Positions 14,282-18,239 of a stretch of DNA of 64,000 nt are shown here, in pieces (positions within the stretch are counted from its first letter, which is position 1; the number at the start of each line of letters is the position of its first letter). The position numbers and the translations under genes are program-made. The notes beneath the pieces are model-generated. The model had not been told where the DNA came from. It searched no databases and was given only the letters and a program-made list of their open reading frames with translations. The DNA is from Vigna angularis (Eukaryota; Streptophyta; Magnoliopsida; Fabales; Fabaceae). The DNA lies in contig NC_068974.1 in NCBI RefSeq assembly GCF_016808095.1, forward strand, positions 9,176,001 to 9,240,000, read 5' to 3'.

Positions 14282-14559
14282 AATGTATCTTTTTGGAGAT
14301 GTCAAATCGGTAGAGATTGAAGTCATAAAATGTTTTAGATTATTATTTTGCATTGGTTTTCTACTTTTTGGTTTTGAAAGATACTTCAGTTAGAGCTGTC
14401 AAAGCAGCCCATTTTATAAGATTTGGCCCTAGCCCATGTGGGTTGGGGCCAAAAAAGCCCACAGGGCCAAAAAAATTTCTCATTAAAAAAGCCCACAGGG
14501 CCAAATAGCCCTAAAGCCCTATGGGTCAGGGCTAGCCCATGGACTTTCCTTTTTACCAT

Positions 14560-16660
14560 GAGAAAAATATAATAATAAAAGTAGAAACAAAAATTACAGT
14601 GGAGAAATAGAAATTTGCAATGTTAAACCAAAAATAACAGTATTAACGTAAAAACATATTGTCCCACTTCCAACTTCAGAGAAAATCTAAAGTGAACTCT
14701 CCTCCCTCACGTATGAACAACAGTTCAGCTTCAATCTTCTGTCCAGGCCATTGCAAGTCATATCCTCATGCATATTTTGTTTCTTTAAGTTCTTCACTAG
14801 ATAGCACAGGTCACCAATACAACTCCAGCCATTCTCCAGTCACACTCACGAGCCATGCTTTGCTCACTGATCCAGCTTTTTCAGACTTTAAGACAACATC
14901 CAGCACATTCATTCATTGGCTGCACCAAGTGATACTCCTGCTTGTTTTTATGATTAGTTCAATTAAAGCAATCTGGACTAGCTAAAAAATGCACCAAAAA
15001 CTGATATAACAAGACATTTCAATTATATCAGCCTTCGTCTCTTGAGTAATGTGCACTCTACGTACAAGCTTTCGCAACTCCTGTTAAACATATTCATTAT
15101 ACGTATAGATAACATAAATGAAGGTTGTGCCAATAAATACCACAGCAAGAAGATTTTTTTTAAAAGGTCTATTATACTTTTTGTATAGAATATATAGTGT
15201 TTCATTTGAAAGCTAAGATAGCCATAATCCTCAACTTTTTACATGATTTCTGCTCCTGAAGGTTGGTTAATTTGAAATAAGCTCTAGAAATTATTTCCTA
15301 TACCATGTTAAGATAATGTATGAGTCACAATTGATCAGAATCTGAAAGCACAAGTACACAGATTGACACTTTTCGACACCTGGCGATCATATTCAACTCC
15401 TTGGACTGAATAAATTTCATTGGTGATTTCAATGTTCTTGTTGATCATATAACAATACTATAATATTATTTCCAATTTTCATCAGATGTCCATGAAGGGA
15501 TGCAATGAAAGAATACTGACTTATTATAACTTGACTGGGATATTCTTAGGCAAGTTGCCTTAAACAATTAAAAATACATTCACCAAAATTACACAGAATT
15601 TAATTGGGCAATTAAAAATGTCTCCATAAACACATAATAATTATATTATATACTTAGTTTGCACAGACAACTTCTAATTTTTATATTATTAGATTGAGAA
15701 GTAGCTTTTGTTTTAGATTTATAAAATGTGATAACATTCAAAGCATAAGAATCAAGGATCTTGAGTTATTTATCCAGACAAGTTCTTCTGCTATGCAAAC
15801 AGAACAAGCCAAAATTAGGTGAGTTGGAAATACTGTAACTCATCCTGAAATACCAGAATTATACAACCCCCCACAACACCCGCAAATGTTAATCATGTGA
15901 TCAAATCATTAAATGTCACAAAAACATGCATCATAAAAACAAAATTACAATATTCAATTCGTTATGGCTATAAGTACAACCTAAATAAAGCTATACCTTA
16001 ATAACATGTATTTTCCCTAGTTATTGATGCCTAATTAAAGAGCATAGAAACTTGGTCAATCAAAAGTTTATTTACCTACTTCCCTTCTTTGGAACAAATA
16101 CCCCATCTTTGGACTTTTCACCTGTCATCCAAACAATCTAATAAATACTTGAAGAATAAATAACAAAATATATAGACCTTCAGGACTTATCGGTACAATA
16201 CAACAGCAGAAAGGGCCCTGATGTCATTATCTAATAAATACTTGAAGAATAACCTGCAAACAAAAATAAACTAAACCAACATTATTATACTTCACACTAG
16301 TAACAGACAAAATACAGAATAACATTATTATTATGAACAATTCGAGAAACAGCTACACATACATTAGAAGATGCAGCAAATGTAACACAAATAACCAAAC
16401 ACCTATATATTTAACAATTATATGACAAAAATATATAATAATTTGCCTGTAAAGTAATGCAGAACACTATGACTTGCTTTTGAATAAAAATAGAAATACA
16501 AGACTAAGCTAAAACTGTATGCTATTTTAACATGCTTATTTAATCTTCCTTTTAAACTGGAGTATTTTTGCTGAATATAAGAAAATAAGAAGACTTCTAT
16601 AGAAGAAAGATAAAAGGTTCATCCTTCAGAAACATCACCATTCATTATTTCAAGAGCATA
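14560..16660. other. Interior of the hAT element without recognisable coding
   Basis: AT-rich. I find no transposase domain in either strand. An exon-like stretch on the minus strand near 16085-16135 (KSKDGVFVPKKG) is open for a few codons but unidentified. Confidence 0.5.
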
Positions 16661-16664
16661 TGAT

Positions 16665-17820
16665 TGGCAAGTACCTGTTTTGACAAACCAGGTAATATGG
16701 CAACCTCATTCAAGAGATTTGCAAGATCAGATCCACTAAAACCAGGCGTTCTCATGGCAATCACATCAAGAGAAACATCATCATCAAACTTTTTTATTGC
16801 TACCATGAACCTTTAGAATTTCGGTCCTTCCCCTTATATCTGGAACATCAACAGTAACCTGTAGAAGCATTGATGTTCAGTAATTTAATCATTAACAAAA
16901 AGCATTAGGCATTTCATAATATAATCATACCTGTCTATCAAACCGTCCTGGTCTCAATAAGGCAGAGTTAAGAATGTCTGCCCTGTTAGTTGCTGCAATG
17001 ACAATGATACTAGTATTACCCTTAAAACCATCCATTTATGTCAAAAGTTGGTTGAGGGTCTGCTTTCTTTCATCATTCCCTCCACCAATTCCAGTTCCTC
17101 TTTGTCTTCCAACAGCATCAATTTCATCAACAAAGACAATGCAAGGGGCGTTCTCTTTGGCCTTCATGAACAAATCACGAACTCGAGAAGCACCAACACC
17201 AACAAACATCTCAACAAACTCAGAACCAGATATTAAAAAAAATGGAACACCAGCTTCACCAGCAATAGCCTTGGCCAACAGGGTCTTCCCAGTTCCTGGA
17301 GGACCAACAAGAAGAACTCCTTTAGGCATGCGAGTCCCAACAGCAGTGAACCTCTCAACAGGGTCGTCGTCGGGGAAATTGAGGTTGTTGGTGGGGGTGT
17401 TGGGGTTGGTGGCGGCGGTGGTGTCGGTGTGGGGTTTGTTGGGGCCTTTTTCCATGGAATCCATGGATTTGAAGTGAACCCAGGAGGAGGGTGAAGCGGT
17501 GATGGAGTTGTTGATGAGGCGAGGGAGAGGGAGGGAGCGGAGGCATTCGATTTCGGTGCGGTAGCGTTTGCGAAGTTTTTCCATTTTGTGGCGGCACTGG
17601 ACGGCGGTTTTGGCAGTGACAGAAGCGTTGGGGCACTGGGCAGTGACGGCATCGGCGACCTCTTGCCAGTGGATGGCTTTGAGGTTTGTGCGGCCGAGGG
17701 AGTACCACTTGTCGCGGTAGGCGTCGATGAGGGCGGAGGTTTCCTCCAGGGTCCAGCATGACGGGGGGAGACAGTGGGAGAAGGTGGAAGGAGGGGTGGC
17801 GAGAGTGAGGGAGAGGCCGT
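16665..17820 (-). pseudogene. Captured trihelix-FtsH fusion inside the hAT element
   Basis: A single open stretch on the minus strand runs from a TGA near 17821 to a TAA at 17036. Its first part is a trihelix (Myb/SANT-like) DNA-binding domain: [46 protein letters not shown]. After an Asn/Pro/Thr linker it switches in frame, at about 17365, to an FtsH-type AAA+ core: RFTAVGTR, Walker [29 protein letters not shown], Walker [23 protein letters not shown]. The TAA replaces a codon before MDGF. Sequence continues to RPGRFDRQ followed by a splice donor, and a second exon (16860-16665; [19 protein letters not shown]) has a one-base insertion in an A-run. Thylakoid FtsH zinc-protease residues are absent. 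The first in-frame Met is at 17584, inside the trihelix. Best read as exons captured from two host genes. Confidence 0.85.
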
Positions 17821-18239
17821 TAAGTGCTCAATGAAGTGGTTGTTCAGAAGAAATTGGAGAGAAGAAATTGGGGCTAGGGGGCTAACCCGGCCCTACTTCA
17901 TTTTCAACCCATCTAATGGGGGCTTTGGGGGCTTTGGGGGCCAGGGGCTTTAAAAAAGCCCCTAAGGTGTGGGTCAACAAAAACAGGGCTAAATATAAAT
18001 TGGGCCAGGGTTAGCTTTGGGGCTTTGAAAAAAATTGACACCTCTAACTTCAGTTGTATTGTAATTTTAGATTATTATTTTGCATTTGTTTATTTGGACA
18101 AATTTTGTTAATTATGTTAGTTTGGAAATAATAAATTCACATTGTCTTTTAAATTCATGTTTTGTTGAAACCATTTCACTTTTTGCAAATAATAATCTAT
18201 ATATTCATCATACGATGACTTCATATTGTGAATCTTAAA

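Follow-up and report, generated by a model that had tools for sequence, protein, structure and literature searches.

The locus

The window, a 64,000-nucleotide stretch of Vigna angularis DNA (G000:C5:9176001-9240000 in the 448-Mb, 33-contig genome searched), contains at positions 14391-18046 a hAT element of 3,656 bp without transposase. Its terminal inverted repeats (TIRs), TAGAGCTGTCAA and TAGAGGTGTCAA, agree at 11 of 12 positions, and a perfect 8-bp target-site duplication, ACTTCAGT, occupies both flanks. Most of the interior can be traced to host donors, at least five loci in all, with about 87-97% identity per piece. The features are as follows.

14383..14390, + strand: left target-site duplication, ACTTCAGT
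14391..14592, + strand: left end, with the 12-bp TIR TAGAGCTGTCAA and about 166-202 bp common to other family members, including transposase-bearing ones
14596..15016, + strand: fragment A (element 206-626), from C11:14691146-14692368 in four pieces
15447..16130, - strand: fragment B (element 1057-1740), from C1:23543929-23544611, 94.6%
16125..16559, - strand: fragment C (element 1735-2169), from the UTP4-like gene at C7:14644181-14644805, with internal gaps and a 22-nt template stretch copied twice
16574..17357, - strand: fragment D (element 2184-2967), from the FtsH gene at C1:44784164-44785538 in two pieces
16859..16930, - strand: FtsH intron 1, retained, 72 bp
17036..17038, - strand: TAA ending the fused frame; a glutamate codon in the donor and the other two copies
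17039..17827, - strand: fused open frame of 263 codons, no ATG before residue 82 (open-reading-frame list and Pfam)
17358..17362, - strand: trihelix/FtsH junction, with about 5 extra nt
17363..17819, - strand: fragment E (element 2973-3429), from the trihelix gene at C2:5681372-5682322, 94.1%, without the start codon
17820..18046, + strand: right end, with the inverted TIR TAGAGGTGTCAA
18047..18054, + strand: right target-site duplication, ACTTCAGT

Taken alone, this pair of ends and duplications is weak evidence for a transposon. When the window was shuffled 40 times, the corresponding pattern (a 12-bp inverted pair, 0.5-10 kb apart and with no more than one mismatch, with exactly the same 8 bp on both outer sides) arose on average 0.225 times per shuffle, and never more than 2 times. 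Without masking, the real window holds 5,384 such pairs; among the matches listed, nearly all lie in simple repeats. The assignment to hAT made in a preliminary description is settled because the same ends and duplications recur across a family, described below. That description had also called the element devoid of transposase, and Pfam agrees: three open reading frames inside the element (from those of at least 50 aa at 13000-19500) yield Myb, AAA, and AAA lid domains and no transposase domain. Scanning the window with Rfam (gathering threshold) and for tRNA genes produced no match.

A 27-nt repeat (96% identity) lies on either side of the element, at 14333-14359 and 18065-18091; the empty site therefore contained a short tandem repeat. 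Other repeats populate the window. Beside the element, at 18400-19400 on the + strand, translations read by eye contain decayed copia-type reverse transcriptase and RNase H pieces. A 487-bp direct repeat pair (52679-53165 and 55869-56355, 97.1%, with TGTTGG...CAAC ends) encloses copia-like pieces on the minus strand, again by eye, and 52679-56355 looks like an LTR retrotransposon without obvious target duplication. There is also a tandem repeat of about 240 bp at 21788-22566 (90-91%), and an inverted pair of about 1.1 kb at 8203-9352 and 58174-59289 (74%), parts of which match 20204-20923 too.

One frame from two genes

The fused frame carries a trihelix domain (Pfam Myb_DNA-bind_4, residues 23-125, 1.1e-14) followed by an FtsH AAA+ core (Pfam AAA, residues 171-263, 2.5e-30), in keeping with the continuous frame first reported. 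The best 60 of its 315 solved-structure matches are AAA+ proteins (FtsH, CDC48/p97, and relatives), all to the AAA part. The first ATG, residue 82 at 17584, falls within the trihelix domain. The TAA was correctly noted; the junction exists too, although at 17358-17362 rather than near 17365.

The two parts come from unrelated host genes at separate loci, joined in frame as first described. The trihelix donor on C2 is intact: it is open over 317 aa and 97% identical to a V. unguiculata protein, and relatives of its product carry the names ASIL2 or FIP2. The FtsH donor on C1 has a long first exon, an intron, and further exons, and contains the stretch HEVGH, presumably the protease motif. The captured FtsH ends before the protease part, which is absent from the element, and about 580-590 bp of the donor are missing between its two pieces. 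This donor and its C4 paralog differ at 93 sites; the window element carries the donor state at 83 of them, the paralog state at 7, and neither at 3. A further FtsH match, at 74%, lies at C2:4298597-4299398. The 72-bp intron was kept, and the template was therefore DNA, not mRNA. Both donor breakpoints of the junction fall within exons, so intron-mediated exon shuffling was not the route.

The UTP4-like label of the C7 donor derives from one PDB match and a weak WD40 match of another open reading frame. For fragments A and B, Pfam searches with one open reading frame each (and a PDB search with that of B) gave nothing above the cut-off. No donor for element positions 627-1056 was found in the genome searched.

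How the pieces were joined

At four joins of the window element, adjacent pieces share an overlap of 5-14 nt; at other joins, gaps of 4-33 nt lie between them. All three full copies of the element have a 6-nt overlap between the C1 and C7 pieces (fragments B and C). At the FtsH deletion, the window copy has an overlap of 13 nt and the other two have one of 3 nt. Within the C7 piece, a 22-nt template stretch is copied twice, after which the copy jumps onward. The short overlaps and the doubled stretch would fit template switching, for which models have been discussed in work on animal Pack-TIRs (PMC8277862).

A family of trihelix-bearing elements

Two further full copies, at C4:14854691-14858361 and C1:56923451-56927076, are each 93% identical to the window element; the three differ pairwise by 2.8-3.5% at gap-free sites. 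Their separate locations reveal mobility as a unit with the cargo. Two have exact but different duplications, ACTTCAGT and ATAATAGT; the right end of the C1 copy is damaged.

The family set comprises 15 trihelix-bearing elements, including these three; further trihelix-module or right-end matches lie at C9:13038958-13039135 and C1:59811445-59811759. Counts of left ends are lower bounds, with 40 of 325 candidates scored. The relatives share the same TIR, and 10 of the 15 have an exact 8-bp duplication, every one different. L016 has a duplication with a single mismatch, and none was found for L010, L022, L023, or L028. The search for other copies with the same TIRs that the preliminary description proposed thus turned up full copies, relatives with other cargo, and relatives with transposase.

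In all 15 elements the trihelix piece begins at native positions 641-652, past the native ATG at 601, and the start codon is therefore absent from every one. This shared piece looks like the product of one capture. Its 3' borders fall into seven kinds, with different DNA beyond:

FtsH at native 1098: 3 elements
a second partner at 1094: L017, L018, L019, L020, L022, L025
a kind found in L026 alone
a kind found in L023 alone
1047: L021, L024
1044: L016
1226: L028, whose trihelix piece is longer and unbroken

In L016 and L023 a further segment of the trihelix gene, from downstream, is retained. A portion of the C7 piece is present in L016 too (80% over 413 columns), without the gap of the three full copies.

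The simplest order would be trihelix capture first and FtsH later. However, in a tree of the trihelix piece L017-L019, which have no FtsH, branch among the FtsH-bearing copies (support 0.79-0.83), and the position of the native gene has low support (0.30-0.39); because of this, elements may have exchanged sequence, FtsH may have been lost, or capture may have happened more than once.

Two members have unusual arrangements. L020 has, within 859-1627, two left ends 600 bp apart, each preceded by TAGAACAT, which is identical to the right-end duplication. In L024, two family members (403-2224 and 2481-4309) lie about 260 bp apart in opposite orientation, with the trihelix module in the second only.

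Transposase-bearing relatives

A genome search with PF05699 gave 150 scored matches among 273 candidates. The left end of the window element is present at 83-87% in four of the eight loci fetched (L043, L044, L045, and L048). One relative, C6:19948499-19954080, was chosen because its left-end match adjoined a PF05699 match. It spans 5,582 bp, has both TIRs and the 8-bp duplication AACAACCC (a word present six times in the stretch searched), and encodes zf-BED, hAT RNase-H, and dimerisation domains in an interrupted frame. Its right end matches seven of the nine pack elements tested, at 70-78% over 49-128 columns; no such match was found in the other two, L009 and L026. Among the left parts of trihelix-bearing elements, those of L017-L019 match the transposase-bearing L045 at 92-96% over about 700 bp, and those of L020, L021, and L024 match L043 at 96-97% over about 430 bp.

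A probable history of serial capture

The observed ends, duplications, donors, copies, junctions, and stops, together with transposase-bearing relatives that have the same ends, suggest a history. We conclude, with a probability of roughly 0.93, that the window element is a compound Pack-hAT made by serial capture at the DNA level, and not a nascent gene. A hAT element of a transposase-bearing family would have lost its transposase and acquired segments of at least five host loci, the probable mechanism being template switching while DNA was repaired or replicated. A trihelix piece lacking its start codon would have been captured beside the right end and then multiplied; later its 3' side would have been cut and joined anew to other DNA, with breakpoints of seven kinds. 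The partner in one lineage would have been the FtsH piece with its intron, joined in frame by chance. This lineage would then have given at least three insertions, with transposase supplied in trans, presumably from full-length relatives, and its copies would now be decaying. The trihelix fragment has entered seven kinds of join, and for the one that put trihelix and FtsH in frame chance is explanation enough.

A gene in the making?

The preliminary description saw here exon shuffling frozen at an early stage. That interpretation is not supported: the junction is intra-exonic in both donors, the trihelix piece starts after the start codon in 15 of 15 elements, the damage lies at different points in the three full copies, and FtsH is but one of seven partner kinds.

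The wider proposal, that the trihelix-FtsH frame, or the FtsH part of the C4 copy alone, gives rise to a selected protein or a regulatory RNA, is improbable. The frame is uninterrupted across the join in the window copy, and the V. umbellata protein record P0001 shows this fused frame too (95% over 99%). V. angularis records call the C4 copy "FTSH 2, chloroplastic isoform X1" and "X5", which may imply transcript support. Against this, no ATG precedes the trihelix domain and the protease part is missing. Moreover, each of the three full copies is disrupted, at positions that differ between copies: the window copy has its stop and a frameshift (near 16790), both in the FtsH part; the C4 copy has a stop within the trihelix part; and the C1 copy has a trihelix-part stop and an FtsH-part frameshift.

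The substitutions hardly point to constraint on the protein. Compared with the native gene, the trihelix parts have synonymous to nonsynonymous differences of 7:20 (window), 7:22 (C4), and 8:15 (C1), and all three fit the neutral expectation of 26% synonymous (0.263). For FtsH, the expectation is 27% (0.266): the window copy fits it (5:11, p 0.78), whereas C4 (8:8, p 0.046) and C1 (7:8, p 0.085) lean synonymous, although part of the synonymous differences belongs to the donor branch (7 sites where window and paralog agree against the donor), which confounds these counts. The slight synonymous excess in C4 speaks against pure neutrality. By comparison, the count between the FtsH donor and its paralog, two genes assumed to be functional, is 56:4. 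(An earlier FtsH codon count, 5:20, 9:16, and 8:16, with 63:4 for the paralog, was discarded; it ran beyond the deletion join.)

A more elaborate version, which we consider slightly less likely again, would make the hAT family a repeated assembly site with at least seven partners and would also have the FtsH-derived frame of C4 transcribed, interfering with native FtsH as RNA or as a truncated AAA+ protein.

It is very improbable that the fusion predates the transposon, having formed in a host gene that was then captured. All three FtsH copies do share the junction, but other joins occur at or close to this place in 12 of the 15 trihelix-bearing elements, and the trihelix piece of L028 is longer and unbroken. 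Nor was a normal host gene with the join, which would have refuted the preliminary description, seen among proteins of about 145-875 aa. Finally, coincidental ends around an ordinary cluster of pseudogenes can be dismissed, despite the yield of shuffled windows and the simple-repeat matches of the real one: the same ends have different duplications elsewhere and flank transposase genes in relatives.

Protein records that cross the junction

Searches for proteins with the junction covered about 145-460 aa (11 of 32 candidates passed) and about 275-875 aa (5 of 41 passed); six of the 11 and two of the five cross the junction. The six are P0001 and P0010 from V. umbellata and P0006-P0009 from V. 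angularis, the latter four beginning downstream of the trihelix domain. The V. angularis proteins that can be placed, P0007 and P0009, correspond to the C4 transposon copy: P0009 matches it at 100% over residues 240-285 and at 90% over residues 1-241, where the alignment spans the intron. P0001 and the window frame end alike, in LLT, and both have GTR and FFLI at positions at which the other two copies, C4 and C1, differ.

Another record, P0003, is identical to L019 over residues 105-297. Its gene model (L008 3527-3655 and 1380-1958) joins outside residues to the trihelix part of L019, and residues 66-108 have a 93% match about 1.4 kb past the right end of that element. A host exon may have been annotated here as spliced into the transposon.

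Known systems and significance

Elements of this kind are already published in maize, rice, and animals, and the window element adds a member. The preliminary remark that reports of gene-carrying hATs are fewer suits the older literature, in which they are termed rare (PMC3260210); since then Pack-hATs have been catalogued in maize and rice (PMC8903248), and 208 of 370 animal Pack-TIRs are hAT (PMC8277862). Among the titles listed on a trihelix-FtsH join or the hAT family, none names this join, and a paper search with the TIR letters listed one tea transcriptome paper.

The Pack-TYPE elements of maize and rice, Pack-hATs included, are likewise non-autonomous, with TIRs, an 8-bp duplication, and captured gene pieces (PMC8903248); the window element differs in coming from a legume, with five source loci and related forms whose donors are identified. 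Maize Ds2 and Ds-l4 (two and nine elements) are hATs with gene-derived filler that includes introns, one carrying a fragment of the Myb-type gene ZmMybst1, but they have Ac-type TIRs and other captured genes (PMC3260210). Grapevine Hatvine-6 is a hAT family with shared ends and variable regions matching host introns and exons; its elements share transposase coding sequence, which the window element lacks (PMC2528002). Animal Pack-TIRs offer microhomology at breakpoints, template-switching models, and distinct duplications in a multicopy hAT case; there the multicopy class is a minority, whereas the window cargo is multicopy and serially rearranged (PMC8277862).

Together, these results resolve well how a plant hAT family can capture gene pieces serially, with five source loci identified, several intermediate forms in one genome, and a sign that a template was used repeatedly. 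They also bear on annotation. The V. angularis "FTSH 2" models are transposon cargo, and Vigna models named "ASIL2-like" and "26S proteasome subunit 4-like" share the junction. Such transposon-derived models would mislead counts of gene families.
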